Below the pieces are notes generated by a model that was not told the DNA's origin, did no database searches, and saw only the letters and a list, made by a program, of their open reading frames with translations. A DNA stretch of 64,000 nucleotides from Limnochorda sp. LNt (GTDB lineage Bacteria; Bacillota; Limnochordia; Limnochordales; Geochordaceae), in contig NZ_CP141614.1 of assembly GCF_035593265.1 (NCBI RefSeq), positions 2,790,001 through 2,854,000 of the forward strand, read 5' to 3'. The position numbers were made by a program, and so were the translations under genes. Below, one piece after another: positions 32,960 through 59,426 of the stretch (positions are counted from its first letter, which is position 1; each line of letters opens with the position of its first letter).

Positions 32960-34881
32960 CAGGCCACCTCCACCGCGCCGAACCGGCAGGTCTCGAGGCA
33001 CGCCCCACAGCGCACGCAGCGGTCGCTGAGGATGCGGTGGGGCTGACGTCTCTCGCCCACGATGGCCCCTTGCACGCATGCCTGCACGCACGCACCGCAC
33101 CCCGTGCAGGCGGACGGGTCGATGCGGTAGGCCAGGTACGCGGTGCACCGGCGCGCAGGGCACCGCCCCTCCACCAGGTGGGCCAGGTACTCGTCACGGA
33201 AGTAGCGCAAGGTGCTCAGCACGGGGTTGGCCGCCGTCTGCCCCAGGCCGCAGGCGGCCGTGGCCCTCAGCACCCGCCCCAGGGATTGGATCGAGGCCAG
33301 CAGCTCCTCCGCCTGGCGTGGATGCATCTTGCGGGGTCCCCCCGGCGGCGCCACGATGCGCTCCAACAGCTCGTAGAGCCGGGTCGTGCCCTCCCGGCAG
33401 GGGATGCACTTGCCGCACGACTCCTTGCGCAGGAAGTCGAGGAAGAAGCGCGCCACGTCGACCATGCACTTGGAGTCGTCCATGACGACGAGCCCGCCCG
33501 AACCCATCATGGCGCCCGTGCGGGCCAGCGACTCGTAGTCGATGGGGGTGTCCAGCAGGCTCTCGGGCAAACACCCCCCTGACGGCCCCCCGATCTGCAC
33601 CGCCTTGAAGGGCTTGCCCTGCTCGATGCCGCCCCCGATCTCGTAGACGATCTCCCGCAACGTGACGCCCATCGGTACCTCGATGAGGCCGCTGTCCACG
33701 ACCTCCCCCGTCAGGGCGAAGACCTTGGTGCCCTTGCTCCCCTCGGTGCCGATGGTGCGAAACCAGTCGGCGCCGTGGGCGATGATGGCCGGCACGTTGG
33801 CCAGGGTCTCGACGTTGTTGATGACGGTGGGATGGCCCCACAACCCCGACTCCACCGGGTAGGGCGGCCGGGGACGGGGCATGCCGCGGCCGCCCTCCAC
33901 GGAGGCGATGAGCGCCGTCTCCTCCCCGCAGACGAAGGCGCCGGCTCCGATGCGGATCTCCACCGTGAAGGCGAAGTCGCTGCCCAGGATGCGGGAGCCC
34001 AGCAGGTCCCGCTCCTCGGCCTGGAGGATGGCCCGCTGCAGTCGCTCGATGGCCAGGGGGTACTCGGCCCGGACGTAGACGAATCCCCGTCGGGCCCCTA
34101 CGGCGTAAGCGGCGAGGGCCATCCCCTCCAGCACGCGGTGGGGGTCGCCCTCGAGCACGCTGCGATCCATGAAGGCGCCCGGATCGCCCTCGTCGGCGTT
34201 GCAGACGACGTAGCGCACCGGATCCTCCTGCATGGCAGCCAGCCGCCACTTGCGCCCCGTCGGGAAGCCCGCGCCGCCTCGCCCTCGCAGACCGGCCCGC
34301 TCGATCTCGTCGATGACCTCTCGAGGCGTCATCGATCGGATGGCCCGCTCCAGCGCCCCATAGCCGCCCGAGGCGATGTACTCGTCGATGTCGCAGGGGT
34401 CGATCCGCCCGCAGTTGGCCAGCACGATGCGACGCTGCCTGCGCATCAGCGGCAGCTCGTCGACCCGGGGCAGACGCCGCAGGCCGGCCGCCGCAGCCCC
34501 GTCTCCCGTCTCGGAGGGGGACCGGGCCTGTCCGTCGTGGCCGGGGGGCCCCACCGGAGCCCGGACCTCGCCCTCGGGCTCCCCCAGGGCCACGCCCACC
34601 AGCAGGTCGTCTGGCACGATCCCGCCCGCCACGTACGTCGCGACCAGACGAGATGCCGACGCCGGGGTGACGGAGCCGAAGGTGAGGGCGGGCCGTCCCG
34701 GGAGCCGGACGTCGACCAGCACCTCCCGCTCGCACATGCCGATGCAGCCCACGGTCTTGACGCGGGCTCGCACGCCCGCCCGCTCGAGCTCCCGGCGGAG
34801 GGCCTCCACCACCTGCCCCGCGCCGGCCGCCAGGCCACAGCTGCCGGCCCCCACTCGGATCTCAACGGGCGTCGTGCTCAT
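32959..34881 (-). CDS. hydB: Bifurcating hydrogenase flavoprotein subunit HydB (NuoF-like)
   Basis: A 640-aa NADH- and FMN-binding subunit. Residues about 1-95 form a thioredoxin-like [2Fe-2S] domain (GSCGLAAGAGQ ... KTVGCIGMCEREV). The NuoF core has GRGGAGFPTGRKWRLA for NADH and FMN binding, NADEGDPGAFMDRSVLEGDPHRVLEGM, and the [4Fe-4S] motif SCGKCIPCREGT with a distal Cys in AACGLGQTAANP. The C-terminus adds two ferredoxin motifs, CTGCGACVQACVQGA and CVRCGACLETCRFGA. This domain order is that of HydB in trimeric bifurcating hydrogenases. ATG 34881 has GGAGGGAG upstream and overlaps hydC by 20 bp. Confidence 0.95.
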   Translation of the reverse strand: MSTTPVEIRVGAGSCGLAAGAGQVVEALRRELERAGVRARVKTVGCIGMCEREVLVDVRLPGRPALTFGSVTPASASRLVATYVAGGIVPDDLLVGVALGEPEGEVRAPVGPPGHDGQARSPSETGDGAAAAGLRRLPRVDELPLMRRQRRIVLANCGRIDPCDIDEYIASGGYGALERAIRSMTPREVIDEIERAGLRGRGGAGFPTGRKWRLAAMQEDPVRYVVCNADEGDPGAFMDRSVLEGDPHRVLEGMALAAYAVGARRGFVYVRAEYPLAIERLQRAILQAEERDLLGSRILGSDFAFTVEIRIGAGAFVCGEETALIASVEGGRGMPRPRPPYPVESGLWGHPTVINNVETLANVPAIIAHGADWFRTIGTEGSKGTKVFALTGEVVDSGLIEVPMGVTLREIVYEIGGGIEQGKPFKAVQIGGPSGGCLPESLLDTPIDYESLARTGAMMGSGGLVVMDDSKCMVDVARFFLDFLRKESCGKCIPCREGTTRLYELLERIVAPPGGPRKMHPRQAEELLASIQSLGRVLRATAACGLGQTAANPVLSTLRYFRDEYLAHLVEGRCPARRCTAYLAYRIDPSACTGCGACVQACVQGAIVGERRQPHRILSDRCVRCGACLETCRFGAVEVA

Positions 34882-41697: not shown

Positions 41698-42699
41698 GTG
41701 GTCGAGCACCTCTCGCTTGCGGACGTGGAGCGGCTCATCGCCCGCGGTCGCCGCATCCACGGCGCCGCGGCCGTCTTGCTGCCCCACCGCCCCGATGGGA
41801 CGCCGGACCCCGACGCCTTCGCCGAGATGGTCGCCTTCGTCTCGCGACAGGGCCTGACGCCGGCGGTCAACATGGACACGGGCTACGGCGAGCTCCTCAC
41901 GCCCGCGCAGCGACACGACCTGCTCCGCAGGGCGGCGCAGGTCCTCTCCGGTCGGCCGTTCATCGCGGGGGTGTACGTGGATCCCCAGTCGGCGGACCTT
42001 AGCGACGCCTACCGGCGGGGAGCCGACGAGATCCGGCAGCTGGGCGGCACGCCCATCCTCTTCCCGAGCCCCCGGCTCAAGGCCCTGGACGTGACCGAGC
42101 AGCGCGCCGTCTTTCGCCGCGTGGCCTCCGGAGGCGGCCCGCTGCTCGCCTTCGAGTTGAGCCCGGCCTTCTCGGGGGCCGGCTTTCTCTTCCCCGACGA
42201 GCTGTTCCGGGAGGTGCTGGAGCTTCCGGCCTTCGCGGGCCTCAAGCACTCGTCCCTGAGCCGGCGACTCGAGTGGAGACGGCTGGCCCTGCGCAACGAG
42301 GTGCGTGAAGGATTCCGGATCTACACGGGCAACGACCTGGCCATCGACATGGTCATGTACGGCAGCGACTACCTGCTGGGGCTCGCTGCCTTCGCACCCG
42401 ATGCCTTCGCCATCCGCGACACCCTGTGGGAGACGGGGGACGCCCGCTTCTTCGAGCTCAACGACGTGCTGCAATACCTGGGCCAGTTCGCGTTCCGGCC
42501 CCCGGTGCCGGCCTACAAGCACTCCGCCGCGCAGTTCCTGCACCTGCGAGGGCTCGTCCCGTCCGACACGCCGCACCCGCGGGGAGCGAGGCGGCCGGAG
42601 TCGGACCGGGCCGTCCTGGAGGAGATCGCCTCCCGGCTGCAGCGCCTGCTCGCCACCCTGCAGGACGTGACCCATCGGCAGCGCCCGGCGGGGAGCTGA
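41698..42699 (+). CDS. Dihydrodipicolinate synthase (DapA) superfamily aldolase
   Basis: A 333-aa TIM-barrel protein of the class I aldolase superfamily that includes DapA, N-acetylneuraminate lyase and 2-keto-3-deoxysugar acid aldolases. The probable Schiff-base Lys is in AFAGLKHSSLSRRLEW, and IYTGNDLAIDMVMYGSDYLLGLAAFAPD fits the loop that usually carries the GG-x-GC-type motif, but in divergent form. The context (LacI operator, IolB, sugar transporter) suggests sugar-acid breakdown rather than lysine synthesis. The GTG start follows GGAGGGGGG by eight bases. The exact substrate is unknown. Confidence 0.8.
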   Translation: MVEHLSLADVERLIARGRRIHGAAAVLLPHRPDGTPDPDAFAEMVAFVSRQGLTPAVNMDTGYGELLTPAQRHDLLRRAAQVLSGRPFIAGVYVDPQSADLSDAYRRGADEIRQLGGTPILFPSPRLKALDVTEQRAVFRRVASGGGPLLAFELSPAFSGAGFLFPDELFREVLELPAFAGLKHSSLSRRLEWRRLALRNEVREGFRIYTGNDLAIDMVMYGSDYLLGLAAFAPDAFAIRDTLWETGDARFFELNDVLQYLGQFAFRPPVPAYKHSAAQFLHLRGLVPSDTPHPRGARRPESDRAVLEEIASRLQRLLATLQDVTHRQRPAGS

Positions 42700-42753: not shown

Positions 42754-43566
42754 TCAGGAGACGGGCATCTCGTGCACCCACGCGTGGGCCGGGTCGTCGT
42801 GGAAGCACAGCGCCCGCTCCTCACCCGCCAGGGCCCACAGGTAGTAGACCCGATACCCCGGCGCTGCCGCCACCGGGTGGTATCCGAAGGGCAGCAGCGT
42901 GACGTCGCCGTCCACGATGCGGTAGCAGGCCTCGACGCCGCGCGCCGGGCTGTAGACCACCTGCACCCCGAAGCCCTGCGGCGGCTCGACGCGGAAGTAG
43001 TAGACCTCCTCCAGCGGGATCTCGACGTCGGGAATCGCCTCGTCGTGCTTGTGGGGCGGATAGCTGGACCACTGGCCTGGACCATTGAAGGTTTCGCCGA
43101 CCAGCAGCCGCTGCGCCGGCACGCGCTCGTCGATGATGTCGTGCACCTCGCGCTCGAAGCCCGGGCGCCCGCGATGCTGCACCCGGACGTCTTGGGGCGT
43201 GACGACCACCGCCCCGGCACCCTTCCCTCGGGCGGCCGGCGAGCCGATGACGGCGAGATGGCAGGGCTCCGGCGCCTCCAGCTCGACCTGCTCCCCCGGC
43301 GGCAGGTAGAGGGCGCCGGCTCGTCCCTCGAAGACGCTCGGGCGGGGCCCCAGCTCCCTCCCCTCGAGCCCGTGCCCGTGCAGCCGGACGCGGCCCTCGA
43401 TCAGCACCAGCGCCAGCTCCTCGCCGTCGGAGCCGACCCGGTGCCGCTCGGCCGCCCCCAGCCGCAGTAGGCCGAAGGAGAGGTGACGCAACCCCTCCCC
43501 GGCCCGCACCACCGGCACGAATCCGGGCGTCTGGGGCGGTCTGCGGTGCAGGTCGAGCCGTTGCAT
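42754..43566 (-). CDS. iolB: 5-deoxy-glucuronate isomerase IolB
   Basis: IolB (270 aa) isomerises 5-deoxy-D-glucuronate to 5-dehydro-2-deoxy-gluconate in myo-inositol catabolism. The double-cupin family signature is present: LLVGETFNGPGQWSSYPPHKHDE (metal His), EIPLEEVYYFRVEPPQGFGVQVVYS and DVTLLPFGYHPVAAAPGYRVYYLWALAG with WVHEMPV at the end. It is the last gene of a long minus-strand operon with an ABC sugar transporter, a GH4 enzyme and a two-barrel fusion protein. iolC, iolD, iolE and iolG proper are not adjacent, so it may serve a related deoxyuronate pathway. Confidence 0.92.
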   Translation of the reverse strand: MQRLDLHRRPPQTPGFVPVVRAGEGLRHLSFGLLRLGAAERHRVGSDGEELALVLIEGRVRLHGHGLEGRELGPRPSVFEGRAGALYLPPGEQVELEAPEPCHLAVIGSPAARGKGAGAVVVTPQDVRVQHRGRPGFEREVHDIIDERVPAQRLLVGETFNGPGQWSSYPPHKHDEAIPDVEIPLEEVYYFRVEPPQGFGVQVVYSPARGVEACYRIVDGDVTLLPFGYHPVAAAPGYRVYYLWALAGEERALCFHDDPAHAWVHEMPVS

Positions 43567-43619: not shown

Positions 43620-45677
43620 TCAGGGCGCCGCCGACAGGCGCTCCACCAGGAAGCGCTCCTCGGCTCCTCGGGTCTGCACGAGATGGCGGACGGCATCGGC
43701 GGCCGTCGCCTGCTGGTGGATGATGAGGCTGATGGCCTCCGCCACGGCCCTGGGGTCGTCACGCCCCGGGAAGAGCACGTTGCGGCCCACCATGGCCCCC
43801 CGGACGTTGGGGCCCTCGGCCATGCCCCGCTCGAAGTCCTCCAGCAGGCCGACCGGACTGTCGAGCACCTCGCCCCCCAGGAGCAGGATGGGGAGGGTGG
43901 TGGCCCGCGCCACCCGGTAGAAGTCGGGCACGTACGGGATCTTGAGCCACAACCGGTCGGTCGCCTCCCCGATCCCCGCGGCGACCCCCACGGCCCGGAT
44001 CATCTCCTCGGTCTCCAGGCGCACCCGGTAGCGGCCCTCGACGCGCTCGACGGGCAGCACCTCCAGGAAGACCGGCAGACCAAGTCGCCGGCAGCTGCTG
44101 GCCGCCTGGGCCACGTAGGACATGGTCTGGATGGAGTAGCGGGAGTAGGGGCCCGGGTCGATGCGAAGCAGGAGCTTGCCCGCATCCAGCCCCCGCGCCT
44201 GAATGGCCTCGGGCGTGAAGGCCGTCAGGCGGTCCTCCATCTCGTACTCCACCCCGGCCAGGCCGGAGCGGTTCATGGAGCCCACGATCAGGCGCCCGTC
44301 CAGCAACCCCTGGTGCCCGTGCTGCTTGACCAGCCAGTCGACCAGGAGGAGCTCATCGACGACGTCGGGGGTCGCCATGACGCCGTCGACGAGGGGGCTG
44401 CTCAGCACACGCAGGATGCGGCCCAGGTACTCCAGGCGGTCGCCGAGGGCCACCGGATCGTCGCCGGCCGACGTGACGCGCCGTGCGGGGTGGTCGGCGG
44501 CCAGCACCAGCAGCCTGCCGTCGGCGGGGGTCAGGCCATCGGGGCGGCGACGGGCCCGGGCGGCCTCCTCCACGCGCTCGGCTCGTCGCACCCGGCTCTC
44601 GGCCAGCACCTGCCACAGCTCGTCCGTGAAGAACCGGCGCGTGTGCCAGTAGAACGAGCCCAGGGTGTAGTTGACGTCCAGTCGCTCCCGGGCGACGTCG
44701 TAGAGGGCACGGGTGCTCGTCAACACCGCCTCCGACAGCTCGCCCGGACGAGGCACGACCTCGAGCCCGATGGGGCCCTGGTAGCCGACGTCGACCAGCG
44801 CCGACAGGAAGCCCGCCAGCTGCTCCTCGCCGATGGCGCTGGCGGGATAGTCGAGCCGAGGGTGGCTGTCGCCGTACAGAGGATCTGCCGGATCCAGCAC
44901 CGCGCTGCCGATGTGCACGTGGACCAGGAACGGCGCGAGCAGCCGGATCGCGTCGGGCGTCTCCTCCTCGTCGCCGGGCCCCTTGAGCAGCCGCATGTGG
45001 GAGAGGTCGTAGAGCAGCCCGAAGTTGAAGTGGCCCAGATGGGCGCGCACGATCCGAGCCACGGCCAGCGCCTCGGTCGACGGGCCGATGAGCATGTTGC
45101 GGAAGCCGGGCTCGGTGCGGCGGTCGAAGCTCTCCAGCACTACCCACAGGGGCTCGCGCCCGAGGGCCTCGGCCCGCTCCCGGGCGTACCGGCAGATCTC
45201 GGCCAGGGACCGCACCAGGGCTTCGGTGGCCTCCTGACGCAGCCGGTTGCCCGGCGAGTCGCCCGGGTCGCGGCCGCTGAGCAGGCTCAACGAGACCGCC
45301 CCCAGCTCGTACGCCTCGTCGACGCAGCGCAGGAGCCGCTCCGCGGCCTGCCGCCGGTGGACCTCGTTGGCACTGGCGATGTCGGTGGGTGGGATCCATC
45401 GCTCCTCGTTGACGAGCTGCACGGGCTGCGCCCCGTAGTAGAGGCGTTTGCCGTAGCGGATAGCCATCTCGCGCACCTGCCGGCGCACGTCCGGGTCCTT
45501 GATGCGGGTCACCTCGATGCCGCCGAAGTAGGGATCCCGCAGCACCTGCTCGACGGTGCGCAGCACGTACGAGGCGGGGGCCTCTCCCCGCGCCACCGAC
45601 CGGGTGCTCCCCGGACCGGGAAAGACCATCCAGTGCACGACGGTCACCGGGTTGCGCTCCAACGCCACGAGTGTCAC
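43620..45677 (-). CDS. Two-barrel fusion: sugar-phosphate isomerase-like plus Cgl0159-like aldolase
   Basis: A 685-aa protein joining two TIM barrels. Residues about 1-375 resemble xylose isomerase-like sugar isomerases/epimerases (IolE/IolI group): FGGIEVTRIKDPD, WVVLESFDRRTEPGFRNMLIGPS, FGLLYDLSHMRLL, VHVHIGSAVLDPADPLYG and GLEVVPRPGELSEAVL. After RRRPDGLTP, residues about 395-685 resemble the Cgl0159-type beta/alpha barrel found with inositol genes in actinobacteria (RLLVLAADHPARRVTSAGDD, KLLLRIDPGPYSRYSIQTMSYVAQAAS, LLGGEVLDSPVGLLEDFERGMAEGPNVRGAMVGRNVLFPG), a likely aldolase. It lies between iolB and the secreted unknown. Start GTG 45677; GTG 45668 is better spaced from GGAGAGG. Confidence 0.82.
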   Translation of the reverse strand: MTLVALERNPVTVVHWMVFPGPGSTRSVARGEAPASYVLRTVEQVLRDPYFGGIEVTRIKDPDVRRQVREMAIRYGKRLYYGAQPVQLVNEERWIPPTDIASANEVHRRQAAERLLRCVDEAYELGAVSLSLLSGRDPGDSPGNRLRQEATEALVRSLAEICRYARERAEALGREPLWVVLESFDRRTEPGFRNMLIGPSTEALAVARIVRAHLGHFNFGLLYDLSHMRLLKGPGDEEETPDAIRLLAPFLVHVHIGSAVLDPADPLYGDSHPRLDYPASAIGEEQLAGFLSALVDVGYQGPIGLEVVPRPGELSEAVLTSTRALYDVARERLDVNYTLGSFYWHTRRFFTDELWQVLAESRVRRAERVEEAARARRRPDGLTPADGRLLVLAADHPARRVTSAGDDPVALGDRLEYLGRILRVLSSPLVDGVMATPDVVDELLLVDWLVKQHGHQGLLDGRLIVGSMNRSGLAGVEYEMEDRLTAFTPEAIQARGLDAGKLLLRIDPGPYSRYSIQTMSYVAQAASSCRRLGLPVFLEVLPVERVEGRYRVRLETEEMIRAVGVAAGIGEATDRLWLKIPYVPDFYRVARATTLPILLLGGEVLDSPVGLLEDFERGMAEGPNVRGAMVGRNVLFPGRDDPRAVAEAISLIIHQQATAADAVRHLVQTRGAEERFLVERLSAAP

Positions 45678-45699: not shown

Positions 45700-46599
45700 T
45701 CACGACTCCGGAGACCATTCGATGGCGACTCGGTCTCTCCATGCTTCGCCCCGTGAGATCCCGCTCAATTCCACGAAGAGCTTGCCTTCGTAGTAACCGA
45801 GGCTGCGCGCCATCTCCAGGAGCGCCCGCGGCTTGGTGGTAGCCCAGGCGTAGCCCTCTCGACGCTCCTTCTCGATCTCCCGGATGTCGCGCTTGACGAC
45901 TCCGTCACGGCCCGAGAAGATCGGCTCGTTGGTTCGCAGGTCGTAGAAGCGATACCAGATGACGCTGCCAGGCTCGTGGTAGAAGTACTGCTCCTGGGGG
46001 TCCCGTCGCACGTACCTGGTATCCGGCACCTTGGCTCGCTCGAACCACGCCAGAGCGCCACGTATGGCCTCTTGAATCTCTGCCGACGGAGACGGCTCCG
46101 CTCCATCCCACGGCCGCTTGTACTGCTCCTCCATGCCCTTGCTCCAACCGCCGTGGAGTTGCCATGTCAGAAGTGCGTCGGCCTGCTGGATGTCGCGGGT
46201 CAGGTCCCCCGTTTGATACGTGCCGGTGTACCACGGGATCGACGAGAGATCTCGGGGCGGCGGGGGCAGGGCACCGATCTTTAGGGTAACGATGGTCGCT
46301 CCGTCTCGATCCACCACCGAGCGATGGAGGACGGGCACCTCGACGAAGCCGGGATCGGGCTGCTGGGTTCGCAACACGCCGAACCACGGTGTGGTCGGCG
46401 CCTGTACGGTGATTGCGTGTGAGTCGAGACCATCGACCACGCCCTCCAGGACAAGTTCGATGGTCTCCGCCCCGGTGCGCGAGGCGCTCACGATCCGGGG
46501 CCCCCCGTCGGTTGTGGCCAGCGCTGCTGGCGCAGAGACCCCGCTCACCAGCAGTGCCGACACGGCCACGACACAGAGCCACCTCGCAACCGCACGCAT
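45700..46599 (-). CDS. Secreted protein of unknown function
   Basis: I do not recognise this 299-aa protein. It has a clear signal peptide (RWLCVVAVSALLVSGVSAPAALA), a beta-rich N-terminal region (IVSASRTGAETIELVLEGVVDGLDSHAITVQ), then a charged, Trp/Tyr-rich C-terminal half with WYTGTYQTGDLTRDIQQADALLTWQLHGGWS and GSVIWYRFYDLRTNEPIFSGRDG. No catalytic motif is obvious. GGGAGG stands seven bases before the ATG, so it is well translated. Its place in a sugar-uptake and GH4 operon suggests binding or processing of the same extracellular carbohydrate. Confidence 0.75.
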   Translation of the reverse strand: MRAVARWLCVVAVSALLVSGVSAPAALATTDGGPRIVSASRTGAETIELVLEGVVDGLDSHAITVQAPTTPWFGVLRTQQPDPGFVEVPVLHRSVVDRDGATIVTLKIGALPPPPRDLSSIPWYTGTYQTGDLTRDIQQADALLTWQLHGGWSKGMEEQYKRPWDGAEPSPSAEIQEAIRGALAWFERAKVPDTRYVRRDPQEQYFYHEPGSVIWYRFYDLRTNEPIFSGRDGVVKRDIREIEKERREGYAWATTKPRALLEMARSLGYYEGKLFVELSGISRGEAWRDRVAIEWSPES

Positions 46600-46630: not shown

Positions 46631-47389
46631 CTACGCCCGCACCACCGTCACGCCCCAGCGGGTCAGCTGCTCGACGACCTGGGGGTCCGCCTCCATGTCG
46701 GTCACCAGGACGTCCATCTCGGAGACCGGCGCGACGAGGGCCCCTCCAGACCTCCCCAGCTTGGTGCTGTCGGCCAGGATGACGCACTGCTGGCTGCGGC
46801 GCATGCTCTCCAGCTTGACCAGGGACTCCTCGAGGTCACTGGTCCAGATGCCCTCCTCCAGCGAGATGCCCAGGGCTCCGAGGAAGACCTGGTCCGCATG
46901 GAACTGCTGGAGGAACCGCAGCACCAGGGTGCCGGCCGTGCTAGCGCTGCGCCGGACGCTGCCCCCCAGGAAGACGCAGTGGATGTGCGGATACTGGGCC
47001 AGTGCGAGAGCGATCCGCAGGTCGCGGGTGATGACCGTCAAGCCCCGCCGGGCCGCGAGATGATGCACCATCTGCTTGGTGGTCGTGCCGGCGTCGATGA
47101 TGATGACCGAGTCGTCCTTGACCATGGCGGCGGCCGCGGCGCCGATGCGCCGCTTCTCCTGCGCGCGGTGGCCCTCCCGGCTCTCCGGCAGGGGCAGCAC
47201 GCCGTCCTGGGCGAGCGGCATGGCCCCGCCCCGCACGCGGCGGATGAGCCCCATCTCCTCCAGCCGCACCAGGTCCCGGCGGATGGTCGCCGGCGAGACG
47301 CCGAGAGCGCTCGAGAGGTCCTCCACCGAGGCCCCCGCGTGCTCCCGGACGTTGTGGAGAATGCGCTGTTGGCGCTGCGTCACCAGCAC
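46631..47389 (-). CDS. DeoR family transcriptional regulator
   Basis: A 252-aa repressor of sugar catabolism. The N-terminal winged helix (QRQQRILHNVREHAGASVEDLSSALGVSPATIRRDLVRLEEMGLIRRVRGGAM) and the C-terminal sugar-phosphate sensor (KRRIGAAAAAMVKDDSVIIIDAGTTTKQMVHHL ... VILADSTKLG) are complete. The sensor normally binds a phosphorylated intermediate. I start at GTG 47389 because GGGAGG lies seven bases upstream and the family begins just before QRQQRIL; ATG 47404 is the alternative. It lies inside the operon after the GH4 gene and likely controls it. Confidence 0.92.
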   Translation of the reverse strand: MLVTQRQQRILHNVREHAGASVEDLSSALGVSPATIRRDLVRLEEMGLIRRVRGGAMPLAQDGVLPLPESREGHRAQEKRRIGAAAAAMVKDDSVIIIDAGTTTKQMVHHLAARRGLTVITRDLRIALALAQYPHIHCVFLGGSVRRSASTAGTLVLRFLQQFHADQVFLGALGISLEEGIWTSDLEESLVKLESMRRSQQCVILADSTKLGRSGGALVAPVSEMDVLVTDMEADPQVVEQLTRWGVTVVRA

Positions 47390-47410
47390 GGACTCGCCTC
47401 CCATGCACCG

Positions 47411-48736
47411 TCAGAACTGAGGCAGCCACCGGGCGTTGGCACGCAACAGCTCGTCGAGCATGGATCTCGCCGAGGCCGGGTCGCGTACCAGCGGGTCGTT
47501 GATCAGGGCCTGCAACGCCAGCTTGCGGTCGCCCCGAATGCCGGCCTGGACGGTCATCTCCTGGTTGATGACGTGCGGGTACACGCTCGCCAGGATGGGG
47601 AGGGGAAGCTCGCCCACCGAGATGGGATGGATCCCGGTCGGCCCGGCCACCGCGCTCGTCTCGACGATGACGTCGCGGGGCAGATTGGCGATCTGGCCGA
47701 CGTTGGGCAGGTTGACCACCGTTCGCACCGGCTCGCTGACCCCCTCGAGCGCGGCGATGATGTCGGAGAACTCCTCCCTGGAGCGCCCCAGCGGCACCCG
47801 CTCGCCCTCCCGCAACCAGGCCCGCACCCGCTCCCGGTGGGCCTCGGTGCGGCGCCGGCGCAGGTCGATGGGGGTCATCTCCACGTCGTAGTCCGCCCCG
47901 AAGCGCGTCTGCTCCTTCAGGAAGTAGGGGAAGAACTCGGCGACGTGCCGGTCACCGGCCCCGGCCAGGTAGCCCACCACGTCCAGGAGCGCCAGCTTCA
48001 CCTTCCAGTGGTCCTGGAAGGGCGATCGCTCCTCGAAGTCGGGCTTGAGCGGGATGGGCCTCCCCTCGGCGACGTGCCGGCGGACCCTCTCCACGCCGTC
48101 CTCGCCCTGGATCCGCAGCTGCACGAACCAGGGGAGGTGATTGATGCCGGCCACCAGTGCCTCCAGCTCGTCCGGGCGTGCCCCGAACATCCGCAGCAAG
48201 GTGGCCCGCGTGCTGTCGACCTCGTGGCACAGCCCCACGACCTTGATCCGCGTCGAGCAGGCGATGGCTCGGGTCAGGGTGGACATCGGGTTGGTCAGGT
48301 TGATGAGCCAGGCATCGGGGCAGACCGCCTCCATGGCGCGGGCGATCTCCAGCATGGGCGGGATGTTGCGCAGCGCCCGGCTCAGCCCGCCGGGACCCAC
48401 GGTGTCGCCTACCGTCTGATACACCCCGTACTTCAACGGGATCTCCAGATCGCAGGCCATGGTCTCGAGGCCGCCGGTGGTGATGGTGACCACCACGAAC
48501 TCGGCGCCGGCCAGTGCCGAGCGCAGGTCGGTCGTCGCCTCGACGGCGAAGCCCGCCTCGGCCTGCTCCATGATCTTGCGGCCGAGCCGCGCCATGTCGT
48601 CGAGGGCGACGGGGTCGACGTCGTGAAGGACCACGGTGCCGTCGAGCACCTCTTTCTTGGAGGCGATGTCCTTCAACAGCGTCGGGCCCCAGTTGTAGCT
48701 GCCGCCGCCTACGATGCAGATCCGTGTCGTGCGCAC
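47411..48736 (-). CDS. Glycoside hydrolase family 4 protein
   Basis: A 441-aa NAD+- and metal-dependent glycosidase. The N-terminal dinucleotide site is GGGSYNWGPTLLKDI. The metal-binding Cys-His pair is in GLCHEVD, the substrate-binding Asn is in LINLTNPMS and the His in GINHLPWFV. GH4 enzymes open alpha or beta glycosides by transient oxidation at C3 and elimination. CHEV and the absence of an obvious phosphate-binding signature suggest a non-phosphorylated glycoside such as an alpha-galactoside or alpha-glucuronide, but the specificity is open. The GTG start follows GGAAGGAGGAGG. It directly follows the sugar permease genes. Confidence 0.9.
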   Translation of the reverse strand: MRTTRICIVGGGSYNWGPTLLKDIASKKEVLDGTVVLHDVDPVALDDMARLGRKIMEQAEAGFAVEATTDLRSALAGAEFVVVTITTGGLETMACDLEIPLKYGVYQTVGDTVGPGGLSRALRNIPPMLEIARAMEAVCPDAWLINLTNPMSTLTRAIACSTRIKVVGLCHEVDSTRATLLRMFGARPDELEALVAGINHLPWFVQLRIQGEDGVERVRRHVAEGRPIPLKPDFEERSPFQDHWKVKLALLDVVGYLAGAGDRHVAEFFPYFLKEQTRFGADYDVEMTPIDLRRRRTEAHRERVRAWLREGERVPLGRSREEFSDIIAALEGVSEPVRTVVNLPNVGQIANLPRDVIVETSAVAGPTGIHPISVGELPLPILASVYPHVINQEMTVQAGIRGDRKLALQALINDPLVRDPASARSMLDELLRANARWLPQF

Positions 48737-48767: not shown

Positions 48768-49607
48768 TCATCCCTTGAGCCCGGTCGTGGCGATCCCCTC
48801 GATGAAGTAGCGCTGCGCCACGAAGAAGACCGCCATGGTCGGCAGGATGGAGAGGAGCGACATGGCGAACATGCCGCCCCATGTCACCACCCCCGAGTTG
48901 TCGAGGAAGAGGCGCAACCCCAGAGGGATCGTGAACTTGCGGGGGTCGCTGAGGTAGACCAGGGGTTCGAGGAAATCGTTCCACGTCCACAAGAAGGCGA
49001 AGATCCCCGTCACCACCACGGGTGGCTTGGAGAGCGGGAGGATGACGCGCCAGAAGGTCTGGAAGGCCGAGCAGCCGTCGATGGCCGCCGCGTCGTCGAG
49101 CTCCCGCGGGATGCCCCGCATGAACAGGATCATCAAGAAGATGAAGAAGGCGCCGCCGAAGAACGGCGGGATGACCAGGGGGCGAAAGGTGTCGATCCAG
49201 TCCAGGTGGCGGAAGAGGATGTAGCGGGGCACCAGCAGGGCCTGCTCCGGCAGCATCATGGTCCCGAGCATGAGGGCGAAGAGCGGCTTGCGCAGCCGGA
49301 AACGTCGGCGAGCGAACCCGTACCCCACCACCGTGGCCGCCATCACCTGGCCGATGACCGTCATGCTGGCCACGAACAGCGAGTTGCGCGCGAAGATGGA
49401 GAAGGGGAGGCTGGGCATGGCGTACCAGCCCTTGACGTAGTTCTCCCACGCGAAGCGTGAGGGCCACAACCCCACGGTGGTGAAGATCTCGTTGTCGGGC
49501 TTGAGGCTGCTGGAGAGCAGCCAGAGCAACGGATAGACCATGACGGTGCCGAACGCGATGAGAAAGAGGTGACTGGCCAGGCTGGGCCAGTGGACGCGCA
49601 GCCTCAT
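48768..49607 (-). CDS. Sugar ABC transporter permease, MalG type
   Basis: A 279-aa permease with six hydrophobic segments. Motifs are KPDNEIFTTVGLWPSRFAWENY near the N-terminus, the coupling motif ELDDAAAIDGCSAFQTFWRVILPLSKP, the WTWNDFLEPLVYLSDPRKFTIPLGL segment and the end QRYFIEGIATTGLKG. ATG 49607 overlaps the MalF-type stop by four bases. It imports the substrate that the adjacent GH4 enzyme presumably hydrolyses. Confidence 0.92.
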   Translation of the reverse strand: MRLRVHWPSLASHLFLIAFGTVMVYPLLWLLSSSLKPDNEIFTTVGLWPSRFAWENYVKGWYAMPSLPFSIFARNSLFVASMTVIGQVMAATVVGYGFARRRFRLRKPLFALMLGTMMLPEQALLVPRYILFRHLDWIDTFRPLVIPPFFGGAFFIFLMILFMRGIPRELDDAAAIDGCSAFQTFWRVILPLSKPPVVVTGIFAFLWTWNDFLEPLVYLSDPRKFTIPLGLRLFLDNSGVVTWGGMFAMSLLSILPTMAVFFVAQRYFIEGIATTGLKG

Positions 49608-50557
49608 CGCCCCTGCCCCCCCTCCTCCGACTCTGCCTCGTAGTAGACCAGGCGTCCCGTCGACTTGAAGATGAGGGCCGTCACCCCCGCGATGAGCACC
49701 AGCAGGACCCACGCCATGGCCGATGCGTAGCCCATGTCGAAGTGCCGGAACCCCTTCTGATACAGATACAGGGAGTAGAAGAGGGTCTCGTCCATGGGCC
49801 CGCCGTTGGTGATGAGGAAGCCCTGCGTGAACACCTGGAAGGCGTTGATGGTCTGCATGACCAGGTTGAAGAAGATCACCGGCGAAAGCAGCGGCAGCGT
49901 GATGCGCCAGAACATGTGCCAGCGATTGCTGCCGTCGACGGCCGCCGCCTCGTAGTACTCGGCGGGGATCTGCTTGAGCCCCGCCAGGAAGATGACCATG
50001 GAGGAGCCGAACTGCCAGGCCGAGAGCCCCGCCAGCGTGTACAGGGCGAGGGACGGGTGCGTCAGCCAGTCGGGCCCGCGTATGCCCACCAGCCCCAGCA
50101 CCGCGTTGACCAGCCCGTCTCGGGCGAAGATCTTGCGCCACATGATGGCGACAGCCACCGACGAGCCCACCAGCGAGGGCAGGTAGTAGGCGACCCGGTA
50201 GATCCCAACGCCACGGAGCTTCTGCGCCAGCAGCATGGCGACCAGCAAGGCCACCGCCAGCTTGAGGGGCACCGATAGCACCGCATAGCGCACGGTGACG
50301 CTGACCGCCTTGATGAACCGAGGGTCGGCTACCATCTGGCGGAAGTTGTCGAGCCCGATGAAGCGTGGCGGCGTCAACAGGTCGTATCGGGTGAACGCCA
50401 GCCACAAGGACATGATCATGGGAAACAGAGTGAACGCCAGGAAGCCGACCACCCACGGCGAGACGAAGGCCAGACCCGTCAGCTCGTCGCGCCACGCCCT
50501 CGAGAGGCCCTGCCGGGCCAGCCCGGCGGGGGCCAGCACCTTCTCGCCCACGTTCAT
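49604..50557 (-). CDS. Sugar ABC transporter permease, MalF type
   Basis: A 317-aa permease with six hydrophobic segments. It has LAFVSPWVVGFLAFTLFPMIMSLWLAFTRYDLL, the coupling motif EYYEAAAVDGSNRWHMFWRITLPLLSP and FLITNGGPMDETLFYSLYLYQKGFRHFDMGYASAMAW, all typical of this family. It follows the binding-protein gene by 78 bp. Confidence 0.92.
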   Translation of the reverse strand: MNVGEKVLAPAGLARQGLSRAWRDELTGLAFVSPWVVGFLAFTLFPMIMSLWLAFTRYDLLTPPRFIGLDNFRQMVADPRFIKAVSVTVRYAVLSVPLKLAVALLVAMLLAQKLRGVGIYRVAYYLPSLVGSSVAVAIMWRKIFARDGLVNAVLGLVGIRGPDWLTHPSLALYTLAGLSAWQFGSSMVIFLAGLKQIPAEYYEAAAVDGSNRWHMFWRITLPLLSPVIFFNLVMQTINAFQVFTQGFLITNGGPMDETLFYSLYLYQKGFRHFDMGYASAMAWVLLVLIAGVTALIFKSTGRLVYYEAESEEGGQGR

Positions 50558-50635: not shown

Positions 50636-51937
50636 TCACTGCGAGGCGGCGCGCTGCAGGATGCGGGTCGCCTCGGCGATGAAGTACCGGGCCCCGTCCT
50701 CGGGCGTCCTGCGGCCGAACTGGACCTCCTCGCTGGTGCGCTCGAACAGATCCCGGATCTCCGCGCCGCCCTTGGGCGCCGGTGGCGGGACCGGGCCGGC
50801 GAAGGCCAGGATCTTGTCCTCGATGTCGAAGACCTTGACGTCGTACTGGCTGAGGCCCATCTGTTGCAGCAGGGCCCGACCCGCCGACGTGACCGGCGTG
50901 CCCCGATTGGAGCGCAGGATGTCGAGGGCCTCGGGGGCCTGGATGAACCAGTTGATGAACCGGGCTGCCTCTTCGGCGTGACGGCTGCGCGAGGAGACCG
51001 AGAAGAACATGGAGGACTTGGGGTAGTGCCCCTCCGCCTGGCCGCCTCGCGGCAGCGGCGTCATCACCATCTCGTCCTGCATCACCACGGCGAAGCGCTC
51101 GTGCTCGTTGGACCAGCCGCGATGGGCCACGGCCTGGCGCTTGACGATGAGGTAGTTATAGAGCTCGTCGGAGCTGGCCAGCGAGACCTCCGCGGGAGGC
51201 GCCAGGCCCTGATCCCGCAGGCTCTTCCACATGGCCCACCAGCTGGCGACGTCCTCCTCGTCGATGGCCAGGCGGTTACCCTGGTAGATGCCGGGCCGTC
51301 CTCGCTGACGCACCCAGTGCTCGAAGTAGTTGATCTCACCCGAGAAGTCGGCGCTGAACCAGACCTGGGGCCCCAGCGCGCCCGTCACCTTGCGGGAGTA
51401 GTCGAAGAAGTCCTCCCATGTCCAGTCCAGCGGCGGCAACTCGAGCCCGGCCTCCGACAGCAGCGTGCGGTTGACGTGCAGCACCTGGACGTTGAGCCCC
51501 AGCGAGATGGCGTAAAGCTTGCCGTCGACCATCCCCGCCTTGGCCAATTGCGGGTCCATGTCATCCAGCACCAGGGCGCTGCCGACCCACGGCGCCAGGT
51601 CCATCAAGGCGCCGCGCTGGGCGTACTCGAGCAGGTAGGCGTAATCCATCTGGATGATGTCCGGCGGGTTGCCCGAGGCGACCATCACCGCCAGCTTGTC
51701 CCAGTAGCCGCTCCAGGCGGTGAACTCGGGTGTGAAGCTGACGTGCGGGTTCTTGGCACGGTACGCCTCGAGCGCCTTGAGCGTGCGGTCGTGACGCTCC
51801 TGGTTGCCCCACCAGTAGATCCGCAGGTTGACCGGTTGCTGCGACGACCCCGCCAGTGCATCGACTCCCAGGGCCAACAGCCACGAGGCCATCATCACCA
51901 CGACGAGCCCTGACGCCCACCATCGTCTGAGGTGCAT
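50636..51937 (-). CDS. Sugar ABC transporter solute-binding protein, family 1
   Basis: A 433-aa exported sugar-binding protein: basic N-terminus, hydrophobic signal (ASGLVVVMMASWLLALGVDALA), then VNLRIYWWGNQERHDRTLKALEAYRAKNPHVSFTPEFTAWSGYWDKLAVMVASGNPPDIIQMDYAYL, a strong family signature. It heads the operon running through the permeases, GH4, DeoR, secreted protein, two-barrel fusion and iolB. ATG 51937 has GGGAGG twelve bases upstream. It is divergent from the Gfo/Idh gene. Confidence 0.92.
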   Translation of the reverse strand: MHLRRWWASGLVVVMMASWLLALGVDALAGSSQQPVNLRIYWWGNQERHDRTLKALEAYRAKNPHVSFTPEFTAWSGYWDKLAVMVASGNPPDIIQMDYAYLLEYAQRGALMDLAPWVGSALVLDDMDPQLAKAGMVDGKLYAISLGLNVQVLHVNRTLLSEAGLELPPLDWTWEDFFDYSRKVTGALGPQVWFSADFSGEINYFEHWVRQRGRPGIYQGNRLAIDEEDVASWWAMWKSLRDQGLAPPAEVSLASSDELYNYLIVKRQAVAHRGWSNEHERFAVVMQDEMVMTPLPRGGQAEGHYPKSSMFFSVSSRSRHAEEAARFINWFIQAPEALDILRSNRGTPVTSAGRALLQQMGLSQYDVKVFDIEDKILAFAGPVPPPAPKGGAEIRDLFERTSEEVQFGRRTPEDGARYFIAEATRILQRAASQ

Positions 51938-52138
51938 GGCAACGGCACACCTCCCGGACCACGAGTCGTCGGGGTCACAACCGGCCCGGCCACAGCCCCT
52001 CGGCCGCCCCACCCCCGCGGCGTCGACGAGGTCGGGCCCCGCGACGCGTCCTGTTTCGAGGCCACCCACCCGGGCGGTGCGCAGTATTCGCCGGATGGCG
52101 GTCACCATCCTGCAATCGGGGTCAAGTTACGCGCACAT

Positions 52139-54304: not shown

Positions 54305-55765
54305 CTACGATCCGGTGCGCAGGGCTCGCTTGGCCTCCTCCAGCCGGGCGCGCTCGGGGCTCTCACGGTAGTGGCCGTCGAGAGGGTAGCAGCCGCTGGG
54401 GAGTCCGTTGCGAGGGGCCGTGGTGCAGTCGCTGAAGGTGCGGCAGATGCGGCGGCGGTCGGGCTGGCGGCCCTCCAGCACGTCGGACGGCAGCCACGGA
54501 TAGGCCAGCACCATGCGCCCGATGCCCACCGCGTCGGCCCAACCCTGCCGCACGACCGCCTGGGCGACGTTGGGCAGGAACTCCTGGAGGTACGTGTAGC
54601 CGGACCCCACCAGGACCATCTCCGGGTGGGCCGCTTTGAGCGCACGTACGGCCTGCACGTGCCGCGCCACCCCGGCCAGCGGCTCCTCGGGCGGCAGGTA
54701 GCCGTCCGACGGCGGGAAGAGGGCGGGCCGCTGGATGTGGGGCGTGTAGTAGGGGCTGCCTCCCGTGACGTTGACGGCCGCCACGCCCAGGCGCGCCATC
54801 AGGCCCAGCAGCGCGTCGGCCTCCTCCAGCGAGATGCGGGTGGGGTCGTCCGGGTCCACGCCGAAGCCGTAGCGGTAGGGCAGCAGGTGGCGGTGCGGCT
54901 CCGGCTCGCCCACCCCGTCGGGCCCCTTGCGGAAGGGCACCATGTCGAAGGCGCTCAGCCGCACGGCGATCAGCAGCTCCGGCGCCTCCCGCCGGACGGC
55001 GCCGATCACCTCCCGCAGCAGCCGGGTGCGCCCCTCGAAGTCGCCCCCGTACCGGCCCGGCCGGTTGCAGGCGCCCAGGAACTCGTGCAGCAGGTAGCCG
55101 TGGCAGTGCTTGATGTCGACGAAGTCGAAGCCTGCCTCCACGGCCAGACGGGCTGCCCGGGCGAAGTCTCCTATCAGGTCGTCGACCTCGGCATCGGTCA
55201 TCACGGGCCGGTGGTCGTCGGGGTCGATGCCGACCCGGCGGTCCAGGATGGGGTGGTGATAGGCGATGCGGGGCTCGAGGCGGTCGTGGGCGTTGGGCCG
55301 GCAAAACCGTCCCGAGTGCGTCAGCTGCAGGCCGATCAGCAGGTCGTCGGTGCGTCCGTGGCGCCGCCGGTGAGCCTCCACGAGCGTCTCGCGCAGCCGC
55401 GCCAGTGCCCCGACGGTCTGGGGAGCGATGACCAGCTGGTTGGGGTTGGCCCGTCCGTCGTGGCGGACCGCGGTCGCCTCACCGCCCCAGACGATCTTGG
55501 CGCCGCTCTCGCCGAAGCGCTGCCACCGGCGCAGGGTGCGCTCCGAGGGGCGGCCGTCGGGCGTGCCGTCCCACCCCTCCATGGGCTGCACGCACCACCG
55601 GTTGCCCGCCACCCGGCCCGCGATAGAGAGCGGACGGGCCAGGGGCGAATCGGGCGCCGGCAGCACCCGGTCGTCCACCGGGATCTCCAGCTGGAGCCGG
55701 GAGAGGTACGCACGAAACGTTTCGGCATCACGGAACGATGCGATCCTCGGGTAGCGCTCGGCCAA
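54305..55765 (-). CDS. Old yellow enzyme-family NADH:flavin oxidoreductase
   Basis: A 486-aa FMN-dependent ene-reductase-like barrel. Recognisable parts are the FMN-binding start ([46 protein letters not shown]), [59 protein letters not shown] with the active-site His pair, and the C-terminal [18 protein letters not shown]. It lacks the second FAD/NAD domain of dienoyl-CoA reductases. A Cys-rich tail ([24 protein letters not shown]) could hold a metal cluster. The TTG start follows GGGGAGG by seven bases. A CGAAACGTTTCG operator lies about 40 bases inside the gene, implying control by the LacI regulator 14 kb away. Confidence 0.87.
55713..55724. promoter_or_regulatory. Second LacI-type operator palindrome
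   Basis: CGAAACGTTTCG, identical to the palindrome at 41650-41661, lies inside the 5' end of the oxidoreductase gene. It is coding sequence there, so chance cannot be excluded, but a 12-base perfect match near a start codon is suggestive of repression by roadblock. Confidence 0.5.
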
Positions 55766-55814
55766 CGTCGGTCCTCCCCTCTTCCTCGGGGCCACGGGAT
55801 GCCGGGCCCGCCGC

Positions 55815-56678
55815 TCAGCGCGCCGCTCCCTCGCCGACGCCCCCCACGACCCGGCTGCCGCCCGCGTAGCCCAGGGCGTGGGAGACGGCATGGGCCGTCT
55901 CGACGACGGCCCGGCCCAGCTCGTCGACGCGATCCAGCGTGACGGAGAAGATGGGCCCCGAGACGCTGACGGAGGCCACGACGCGTCCGCCGTGCCCGTA
56001 GACCGGGGCCCCCACGCAGCGGATGCCCTCTTCGTTTTCGACGTTGTCGATGGCGAAGCCGCGTGCCCGAGTCGCGGCCAGCTCCTGGCGCAGGGCCTCC
56101 ACGGTGGTGATGGTCTGGGGCGTGCGGGGGAGGAGGCGCGTCCGCTGCAGGATGGCCTCCCGCTCGCGCTCGGGCAGGACCGCCAGGATGGCCTTGCCCA
56201 GGGCGGTGCAGTAAGCCGGGCTGCGCGTGCCCACGAAGGAGGCCATCCGCAGGTTGGCCGGGGAGTCCAGCTTCTCCACGTAGACCACGTCGGTGCCGTC
56301 CAGGACGGCCATGTGCACCGTCAACCGGGTGCGGTCCCGCAGGTCGGCGAGATACGGACGGGCCACCTCGCGCACGTCGAGCCGCGCCAGCACCCGTCCG
56401 CCCAGCTCGAGCAGGCGCAGCCCCAGACGGTAGCGGGCGCCGTCGGGTCCCAGCTCCACCAGCCCCAGCTGCAGCAAGGTCTTGATCAGCCGGTGCACGG
56501 TGGCCTTGTGAAGGCCCGTGGCTCTCGCCAGCTCCGAGATACCGGCGTCGTGGCGCGCCAGCACGTCGAGCAGCCGTACCGCTCGCTCGACGGCCTGGAC
56601 GGAGTGAGTGCCGTCCCGCTCGGCGGACGGCACTTCGATGGACGCGGCCGGCGCCGCCGGGTCTCGGGTCCTGGGCAT
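55815..56678 (-). CDS. IclR family transcriptional regulator
   Basis: A 287-aa regulator with the IclR winged helix ([52 protein letters not shown]) and GAF-like effector domain ([39 protein letters not shown] ... [37 protein letters not shown]). IclR proteins often control aromatic or sugar-acid catabolism. It is 49 bp upstream of the oxidoreductase gene on the same strand, so it may regulate it. ATG 56678 is used; a GTG directly before it is equally possible, and no strong ribosome site is present. Confidence 0.93.
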
Positions 56679-56792
56679 CACGGGTTACCCGTCGCGATGG
56701 AGGCTGGCCTCGGCTTCGACGGGATGAGCCCTTTCCCCTCCCGTGCACCGGGCGGCGCCGGCCGCTCGTCGTCGGCTGCCGGCGTCTCCGGC

Positions 56793-57962
56793 TCAGTAGA
56801 GGAACATCGGCACCCCCAGGAAGTCCTGCACGCGGGGCCGGTAGTTGTCGACGTCGTAGAGGCGCTCGACGTCGACGCGCTTCTTGCCCGAGGTGATCTC
56901 GGCGATGGGCACCGTGGTGTACTTGCCGCCCTGCAGCGCCACCATCTTGCCCGTCTCGCCCCGCTGCACCAGCTGCACGGCCAGGTTGCCGAACGACATG
57001 GCCACCATGCGGTCCAGCGAGTCGGGCGCCCCGGACCGCATCAGGTAGCCCAGCTGCTGGTACATCACGTTTTGGCCGGTGAGCCGCTTGATGGCCTCGG
57101 CGGTGACCAGTCCGATGCCGCCCAGCTTGCGGTGACCGTAGGCGTCGGCCTCGCCGCTCTGGACCATCTCGCCGCCCTCCATCACGGCGCCCTCGGAGAT
57201 GGTCATGATGGCGTAGTTGGATGGGTTGCTGCGCTTGTCCTCGAGCAGGAACTCGGCCAGCTTCTCCACGTCGAAGGGCACCTCGGAGATGATGGCCCGG
57301 TCGACGTAGGCCAGGTAGGCGCTGATGAGGCTGGTCTCGCCCGAGTAGCGGCCGAAGAGCTCGACCACCGCGATGCGCTCGTGCGAGCCGGCCGAGGTGC
57401 GCATGTTGGTGATGAACTCCACGCTGCGGGTGACGGCCGTCGAGAAGCCGATGCAGTAGTCGGTGCCGAAGACGTCGTTGTCCATCGTCTTGGGGATGCC
57501 GATGACGGGCACCCCCTCCTTGTCGAGGCGGACGCTGTAGCTGAGGGTGTCGTCGCCCCCGATGGTGATCAAGACGTCGATACCCAGGTGCTCGATCACC
57601 TTCAAGACGTAGTCGGTGTAGTCGCGCGTGCCCTTGTCGTCGATCACCTTGCCCCACGACAGCGACTTGAGGAATCCGGGCGCCGCATCGGGCGCGACGT
57701 TTTGAGGATTGGTCCGCGAGGTATGGAGGATGGTGCCGCCCGTGCGGTCGATGGTGCGCACGTCGTTGCGGCTCAGCTCCCGGACGTAGTAGTCCCGGGT
57801 GGAGGGCTCGTCGAGATTGTAATGCAGCAGCCCGGCCCACCCGCGTCGCACCCCGAGCACGCGGTAGCCGGCATCCAGCGCCCCCAGCACCACCGCCTTG
57901 ATGCACGGGTTGAGGCCGGGCACGTCGCCCCCGCCGGTGAGCACTGCGATCGTCTTGCGCAT
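56793..57962 (-). CDS. pfp: 6-phosphofructokinase, pyrophosphate-dependent type by motif
   Basis: A 389-aa phosphofructokinase for the committed step of glycolysis. The phosphoryl-donor loop reads [11 protein letters not shown] (GGDD at 135-138) and the substrate loop GIPKTMDND (157-163). In characterised enzymes Asp after GGD and Lys in place of Gly in PGTxDND select pyrophosphate over ATP, so this is probably PPi-dependent and reversible. This is motif inference; some enzymes of the group still use ATP. Other family segments are [26 protein letters not shown] and [28 protein letters not shown] 57962 has GGAGGGG eight bases upstream. Confidence 0.9.
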
Positions 57963-58235
57963 CGCCTGCACCCCTCCACCACGAAGGTCTTTTTAGGATT
58001 GAGAGTGAGTCCGATTGGAAAGACGCCTCCGGAATCGCAGGCGCCTTCCTGATACCCGATTACAGCGCACCGGCGACGAAAACCTTCCGACTCCCTGCCC
58101 GATGGGGCCCGCGTCTTCAAGAAAGGGCTTCCATATCCATCCACCCGGCCACCGTGGGGCGAGAGGGGCGCTCCCGCCACCCGTCGAAGGAGGCGAAACG
58201 CGAGCGGCCCCACGGAAGGGATGAGAGGCCTCCCC

Positions 58236-59426
58236 ATGTCAGACGGACGCCGCACCGGGACCTCCGGCCGTGCCCCGCGCCGGGCATCGCTCCAGCGTAT
58301 CGTGGTGGCGCCCGATTCGTTCAAGGGCAGCGCCTCGGCCCGGGAGGTGGCGGAGGCCATCGCGGAAGGGTTGCGGCGGGCGCTTCCGTCCGTCGAGATC
58401 GAGACCGTGCCCATGGCCGACGGCGGCGAGGGCACCGTCGAAGCCCTGGTGGAGGCGACCGGCGGACGCTACGTGGAGGTCCAGGTGACCGGTCCCCTCG
58501 GCGAGCCGGTGTGCGCTCGCTTCGGGCTCTTGGGCGACGGGGAGACGGCCGTCATCGAGATGGCCGCGGCGTCGGGCCTGCCCCTGGTGCCGCCCCATCG
58601 GCGGGATCCGATGGTCACCACCACGTACGGCACGGGCGAGCTGATCCGGGCAGCTCTGGACCGGGGCGCTCGACGCATCGTCATCGGCATCGGCGGCAGT
58701 GCCACGGTCGACGGCGGGGTGGGCATGGCGCAGGCGCTCGGCGCCCGCTTCCTCGACGCCGGCGGCCGCGACATCGGCCCCGGCGGCGGGACGCTGGCGC
58801 ACCTGGACCGCATCGACCTGTCGGGCCTGGATCCGCGCCTGCGTGCCACGGAGGTCCTCGTCGCCTGTGACGTGACCAACCCGCTCTACGGCCCCGACGG
58901 GGCGGCGCCGGTCTTCGGCCCCCAGAAGGGGGCGACGCCCGAGATGGTCGCCGTCCTCGATGCCAACCTGCGGCACCTGGCTGACGTCATCCGCCGGGAC
59001 CTGGGGCTCGATGTCTCGACCCTGCCGGGCGGCGGGGCGGCCGGGGGGCTGGGGGCCGGCCTGGTCGCGTTCTGCTCGGCCCGGCTCCGCCCCGGCGTGG
59101 AGCTCGTCATCGAGACCGTCGGGCTCGAGCGCCGTTTGCAGGGTGCCGACCTGGCGGTCACCGGCGAGGGCGCCCTGGATCGCCAGACCCCCTACGGCAA
59201 GACCCCGGCCGGGGTCGGACGCCTGGCCCGGCGCCTGGGCATCCCGGCCGTGGCCATCGTCGGCAGCATCGGAGAGGGGGTGGACCGGGAGATCCTGGAC
59301 GCGTGCGGCCTGTCGGGCGTGCTCTCCATCGTACCTCGTCCCATGGCGCTGGAGGCGGCCGTGCGCCAGGCCGTGCCGCTGCTTCGCCAGGCCGCCGAGC
59401 GACTGGGCTGGCTGCTGGCGCTCTGA
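58236..59426 (+). CDS. glxK: Glycerate 2-kinase (GlxK/GarK type)
   Basis: A 396-aa kinase phosphorylating D-glycerate to 2-phosphoglycerate, which then enters lower glycolysis. The family motifs are VVAPDSFKGSASAREVAEAIAEGLRRA, PMADGGEGTVEALVEATGG, IEMAAASGLPLVP, TYGTGELIRAALDRGARRIVIGIGGSATVDGGVGMAQALG, FGPQKGATPEMV and VTGEGALDRQTPYGKTPAGVGRLAR. It would link uronate, glucarate or glyoxylate breakdown to glycolysis, in keeping with the sugar-acid genes upstream. ATG 58236 has GAGAGG seven bases before it; ATG 58221 is less well spaced. Confidence 0.93.
   Translation: MSDGRRTGTSGRAPRRASLQRIVVAPDSFKGSASAREVAEAIAEGLRRALPSVEIETVPMADGGEGTVEALVEATGGRYVEVQVTGPLGEPVCARFGLLGDGETAVIEMAAASGLPLVPPHRRDPMVTTTYGTGELIRAALDRGARRIVIGIGGSATVDGGVGMAQALGARFLDAGGRDIGPGGGTLAHLDRIDLSGLDPRLRATEVLVACDVTNPLYGPDGAAPVFGPQKGATPEMVAVLDANLRHLADVIRRDLGLDVSTLPGGGAAGGLGAGLVAFCSARLRPGVELVIETVGLERRLQGADLAVTGEGALDRQTPYGKTPAGVGRLARRLGIPAVAIVGSIGEGVDREILDACGLSGVLSIVPRPMALEAAVRQAVPLLRQAAERLGWLLAL

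Follow-up and report, generated by a model that had tools for sequence, protein, structure and literature searches.

An isomerase-like barrel fused to a Cgl0159-type aldolase barrel in Limnochorda sp. LNt

The window analysed here, a 64,000-nucleotide stretch of the Limnochorda sp. LNt genome, contains a gene whose 685-residue product joins two enzyme-like barrels and which lies beside a gene of the IolB family. Which reactions might the two barrels carry out, and on which sugar? The first-pass annotation had taken the first barrel to be of the IolE/IolI type and had suggested that the pair catalyses isomerisation and carbon-carbon cleavage in sequence, replacing missing IolE, IolC and IolJ steps.

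A two-barrel fusion in an operon with sugar-transport genes

The fusion is genuine and is no artefact of assembly or reading frame, since many independent assemblies hold full-length, uninterrupted copies of it. Here it is a single uninterrupted frame of 685 codons with GTG as its start codon, and its GC content at third codon positions (GC3) of 0.93 is that of normal genes in this DNA (GC by codon position). Translation may instead begin at residue 4 (GTG at 45668), the point at which most homologues start.

43620..45677, minus strand: fusion protein, 685 aa (isomerase-like barrel and Cgl0159-type aldolase barrel)
44673..45677, minus strand: N-half, AP_endonuc_2 barrel (Pfam)
43620..44669, minus strand: C-half, Cgl0159-type class I aldolase barrel (Pfam)

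A Pfam search places AP_endonuc_2 (PF01261) at residues 65–317 (65.5 bits against a cut-off of 31.1) and a full-length match to the Cgl0159 domain (PF22649) at residues 387–645 (235.8 bits against a cut-off of 27). The first-pass description of two fused barrels in 685 residues, the second of Cgl0159 type, is thus borne out by the ORF coordinates, by these matches and by the recurrence of the fusion in other assemblies. The halves are joined with almost no linker: a standalone N-half ends near residue 330, and a standalone C-half starts near residue 337. An AlphaFold model built from a three-sequence alignment was poor (pLDDT 47), and our conclusions are drawn without it.

From 52108 down to 42754 all genes lie on the minus strand, mostly 6–80 bp apart, in the order sugar-binding protein, two permeases, GH4, DeoR, PL10-like piece, fusion and IolB. 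The operon itself contains no kinase; two kinase genes of interest lie elsewhere in the window.

50636..52108, minus strand: ABC extracellular sugar-binding protein (PF13416/PF01547)
49604..50557, minus strand: ABC sugar transporter permease (typed by eye from the sequence)
48768..49604, minus strand: ABC sugar transporter permease (tail of a 575-aa ORF; start judged by eye)
47411..48736, minus strand: GH4 glycosidase (best solved relative the alpha-galacturonidase LplD, 3fef, 243 bits; next 174)
46631..47404, minus strand: DeoR-family regulator (PF00455/PF08220)
45700..46599, minus strand: secreted-looking PL10-like protein (PF09492, 99.9 bits, positions 194–291 of 292; PDB 1r76, 1gxm)
42754..43566, minus strand: IolB/KduI-family isomerase, proposed uronate isomerase (PF04962, 261 bits; TIGR04378, 231.6 bits)
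56793..57971, minus strand: phosphofructokinase-family kinase, candidate sugar-acid kinase
58221..59426, plus strand: glycerate kinase (TIGR00045, 511 bits against a cut-off of 168)

The PL10-like gene matches PL10 pectate lyase only in its last third; its N-terminal part is unrecognised, with a signal-peptide-like start, and its GC3 (0.78) is below that of its neighbours. We regard the 575-aa frame across the permease region, like other long ORFs that overlap, as a shadow frame. The phosphofructokinase-family kinase was rejected as an orthologue of the PPi-PFK found beside standalone Cgl0159 genes, to which it is 26% identical. Elsewhere in the window we observe a weak DUF993 (PF06187) match between the LacI and IolB genes (41698–42699, plus strand), an ORF of 528 aa that matches nothing in NCBIfam at E ≤ 1e-20 and adjoins an IclR regulator nearest KdgR (54305–56681), and an NADH-dependent [FeFe] hydrogenase, group A6-like (31190–33163).

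Within the class and phylum, 22 genomes hold the fusion, at 49–79% identity: 17 of 73 class genomes, four from a 398-genome phylum sample and one MAG (L002). Judged by their equal lengths, L003 and L004 seem to be contigs of G017 and G063, and they add nothing to this total. An apparent frameshift breaks the frame in G063, and in G001 the gene is truncated at a contig end. The fused N-halves fall in one clade of the tree (96/100), and this monophyly suggests that the present type of fusion arose in a single event. Both halves also occur as neighbouring separate genes with a 34-bp gap (G183) and at two separate loci (G066). G238 carries a different fusion, independent of the main one, in which an IolO/epimerase-like barrel is joined to the same type of Cgl0159 aldolase (L080 3862–5862); an ADP-PFK/GK-type kinase lies downstream of it and an IolG-like dehydrogenase upstream. 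We found no phage carriage, and no published description of an isomerase-aldolase fusion in the literature searched.

Relatives and catalytic residues of the two halves

The N-half aligns with IolO at the metal and catalytic positions (hhalign, 99% probability), and the Glu-Asp-His-Glu metal site of IolO is present in it as E182 (45132–45134), D224 (45006–45008), H255 (44913–44915) and E306 (44760–44762), all aligned and invariant, as are H227, H253, D270 and H272. IolO (TM0416, 2zvr) and D-tagatose 3-epimerase are its nearest solved relatives, but its score against the IolO model NF041099 is only 26.3 bits and that of standalone homologues 35–52 bits, below the cut-off of 300, and in the tree the N-half forms its own group, separate from IolO. 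It shares a superfamily with hydroxypyruvate isomerase (Hyi, TIGR03234), and its neighbour genes are compatible with a hydroxypyruvate product; however, N-halves score 22–37 bits (21.9 for the present one) against a Hyi cut-off of 353, and are closer to IolO than to Hyi. The IolE model TIGR04379 gives no match to the fusion at E ≤ 1, and IolE falls outside the N-half group in the tree. As judged from sequence, the N-half is an unnamed subfamily nearest IolO/D-tagatose 3-epimerase and distinct from IolE, and neither the label IolE/IolI-type nor the proposed replacement of IolE can be kept. The reaction of this half is one that we infer.

The closest solved relative of the C-half is Cgl0159 of C. 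glutamicum (PDB 3fok), with DhnA, LsrF and LacD as remote relatives. The C-half matches the whole Cgl0159 domain and keeps the catalytic lysine and acid residues proposed for Cgl0159 and the DhnA/LacD class I aldolases; the C. glutamicum protein, however, is a single barrel, whereas the present domain has an isomerase barrel as its fusion partner and is encoded outside an inositol operon. K501 (44175–44177) and E539 (44061–44063) align with the LacD pair and are present in 25 of 25 aligned rows, and K579 (43941–43943), present in 24 of 25, aligns with a lysine of LsrF that we take to be its Schiff-base lysine. The proposed catalytic residues are thus retained in each of the two barrels, in all or almost all of the sequences aligned. 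It was by the Lys/Glu pair of LacD that DUF2090 was recognised as an alternative IolJ, and the IolC-DUF2090 fusion likewise joins an IolJ-type, LacD-related barrel with this pair to an enzyme of the same pathway, although its partner is the kinase IolC and not, as here, an AP_endonuc_2 barrel (PMC9007349).

Gene neighbourhoods narrow the likely chemistry of the C-half. Streptomyces and Tsukamurella plasmid records hold a homologue in the order iolC-aldolase-(iolA)-iolB-iolD, and in Pseudarthrobacter it lies immediately 3' of iolC. Standalone relatives at about 48% identity have IolO on one side and a PPi-PFK-family kinase on the other in IolN-IolO clusters, and aldolase relatives adjoin a sugar kinase, which belongs to the FGGY, the PPi-PFK or the ADP-PFK/GK family, three families that are unrelated. 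Together these neighbours suggest that what is cleaved is a phosphorylated 5-keto-hexonate. Sequence comparisons give good support for an aldolase, and since its actinobacterial relatives sit in iolC-aldolase-iolB-iolD operons the C-half most probably acts, like IolJ, on the phosphate of a 5-keto-aldonate. We predict with reasonable confidence a keto-acid-phosphate aldolase that forms DHAP; its exact substrate we infer. A replacement of IolC is not supported, as the fusion contains no kinase barrel and its relatives have sugar kinases beside them. In five loci (L082, L084, L085, L086 and L088) the Cgl0159 aldolase and a PPi-PFK-family kinase lie inside Thermotoga-type IolN-IolO inositol clusters, an arrangement that suggests a Thermotoga-type IolN-IolO pathway with a phosphorylating end.

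Inositol and uronate markers in the host and its relatives

The inositol pathway that would accompany an IolJ, marked by IolD and IolC, was not found in the host, where neither IolD (best 224 bits against 715) nor IolC (223 bits against 300) exceeds its cut-off. The host IolB (231 bits) belongs to a group scoring 203–239 bits that is found in 10 class genomes lacking IolD over cut-off; IolB genes adjoining IolD mostly score 313–347 or 86–124 bits, and G006 has one copy from the 203–239-bit group and another of 313 bits. Five of the 17 class fusion genomes have an IolD above its cut-off, with G013 additionally carrying it in two pieces, and many genomes without the fusion have IolD too; the distribution of the fusion therefore fails to follow that of inositol catabolism. 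A shortened inositol pathway, with the fusion standing in for IolE, IolC and IolJ beside IolB, would accord with the adjoining IolB-family gene, with the Cgl0159 aldolase in true iol operons of actinobacteria and with the few fusion genomes that do have IolD. We nevertheless consider it highly improbable, given the missing host markers, a fusion with no kinase barrel and no IolE match in its N-half, and a host IolB from the group without IolD among pectin-type neighbours. What stands of the first-pass proposal is the pair of fused barrels beside an IolB-like gene, both with their proposed catalytic residues, and a C-half that is most probably IolJ-like; its inositol context is not supported.

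A uronate is, in our judgement, the somewhat more probable substrate of the host operon than inositol, a reading supported by the presence in one gene run of a GH4 nearest LplD, a PL10 piece, a transporter and IolB. E. coli KduI, which shares a Pfam family with IolB, aids hexuronate breakdown (PMC3578941). The uronate isomerase UxaC (PF02614) gives no match above cut-off in any of the 17 class fusion genomes. Only some of the class fusion genomes searched, the host (G000) among them, hold the altronate/galactarate dehydratase domain GD_AH_C, so an altronate route is possible in the host. At the other fusion loci examined we found neither GH4 nor pectate-lyase genes, apart from one distant GH4 match in L088, and the link to uronates therefore comes from one operon together with the IolB and UxaC patterns. 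The literature searched held nothing relevant on a kinase or phosphate of tagaturonate or fructuronate.

A proposed route and the order of the two reactions

Standalone N-half genes adjoin a PRK13243-type dehydrogenase, of the glyoxylate/hydroxypyruvate-reductase type, in 15 genomes, identified by tblastn on the loci (G060, G038, G066, G084, G385, G341, G364, G103, G073, G238) or by the coordinates of separate searches (G061, G062, G002, G003, G144); in no fewer than nine further genomes that have a standalone N-half, the stretch examined shows no such dehydrogenase. A hydroxyacid dehydrogenase homologue occurs in 23 of 23 genomes searched, none picked for absence of the fusion, so its mere presence is weak evidence; the host homologue, at C1:2386061–2387029, is 65% identical. 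In one locus of G238 (L095 7373–10505), a transketolase C-terminal-type subunit, a hydroxyacid dehydrogenase and a standalone N-half lie in a row. Directly upstream of the fusion, 12 genomes carry a class I aminotransferase gene (L059–L063, L066–L069, L073, L076, L077), often amid chaperonin-type housekeeping genes, and in many relatives, where the fusion lies amid chaperonin, His-tRNA synthetase and GMP synthase genes, this is its sole metabolic neighbour. Other genomes have kinase, IolB and DeoR genes beside the fusion. The phosphosulfolactate phosphatase gene ComB, also a neighbour, is probably tied to the adjacent chaperonin genes, as it remains beside them where the fusion has another location (L061). 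For the FGGY kinase found next to the fusion in relatives, the host has a homologue of 70% identity (G000:C1:2664993–2666483) beside a PfkB kinase.

We tentatively propose, at somewhat less than an even chance for the scheme as a whole, that the fusion is a bifunctional enzyme of sugar-acid catabolism on a phosphorylating route, with retro-aldol cleavage, from a hexuronate to DHAP and tartronate semialdehyde, its N-half acting after the aldolase. The sugar would most likely be galacturonate, imported as oligogalacturonides by the ABC transporter, trimmed by the GH4 enzyme and converted to tagaturonate by the IolB/KduI-type enzyme. A kinase encoded outside the operon, for which the host FGGY homologue is the best candidate, would phosphorylate tagaturonate. 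The C-half, a class I (Schiff-base) aldolase like IolJ, would then split the 5-keto-hexonate 6-phosphate into DHAP and a three-carbon semialdehyde, which from phosphorylated tagaturonate would be tartronate semialdehyde. In a hydroxypyruvate-isomerase-like reaction the N-half would turn this into hydroxypyruvate, to be reduced to glycerate by a 2-hydroxyacid dehydrogenase and then phosphorylated, or, in other species, converted to serine by the aminotransferase. The glycerate kinase, 12.5 kb away, is uncertain as the last step of the pathway.

The order of the two reactions is the part on which the evidence pulls both ways. An N-half acting after the aldolase, which we put a little short of even, is supported by the dehydrogenase beside standalone N-half genes, the aminotransferase upstream of the fusion and the glycerate kinase in the window. 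That the N-half is nearer IolO than Hyi, and that G238 independently joined an epimerase-like barrel to Cgl0159, would instead favour an isomerase acting before the aldolase, by IolO-like epimerisation of a 5-keto-hexonate (5-keto-gluconate, tagaturonate or fructuronate, free or phosphorylated) to the stereoisomer cleaved by the C-half; separate IolO genes, moreover, directly precede Cgl0159 genes in IolN-IolO-Cgl0159-PFK clusters. This order seems to us doubtful, because standalone N-half genes are paired with a 2-hydroxyacid dehydrogenase and not with keto-hexonate genes, the N-half group is separate from IolO in the tree, and G238 retains an N-half homologue beside the dehydrogenase even though its aldolase already bears an epimerase-like barrel. 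The order aminotransferase-fusion, shared by 12 genomes and in several of these set amid housekeeping genes, and the occurrence of the fusion in genomes of differing sugar-acid gene content would suit a broader core role, for example the synthesis or cleavage of keto-sugar phosphates to supply serine, with the place in the host operon a recent local use. Such a role is unlikely, as most class genomes lack the fusion, which is hence not essential, and the kinase, IolB and DeoR genes beside it in other genomes also speak against it.

Returning to the proposed scheme with the N-half after the aldolase, an IolB/KduI-type isomerase, a keto-hexonate 6-kinase and the fused aldolase-isomerase would form a hitherto undescribed hexuronate pathway to DHAP and hydroxypyruvate that by-passes altronate, mannonate and KDG, an idea that we hold as a possibility with the chances against it. 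It would have its starting sugar and tagaturonate in common with the UxaC-UxaB-UxaA pathway, but UxaC is absent here, and the keto acid would be phosphorylated and cleaved with no dehydration. As a Rosetta-stone clue, the fusion itself is strong. The solved structure of the Cgl0159 family is labelled 'uncharacterized', and we found no paper naming this aldolase family in the literature searched; if our reading is right, it would assign the family a function. It would also explain the IolB genes of genomes that have no inositol catabolism, and would add a uronate route whose split of energy and carbon is unlike that of the KDG routes.
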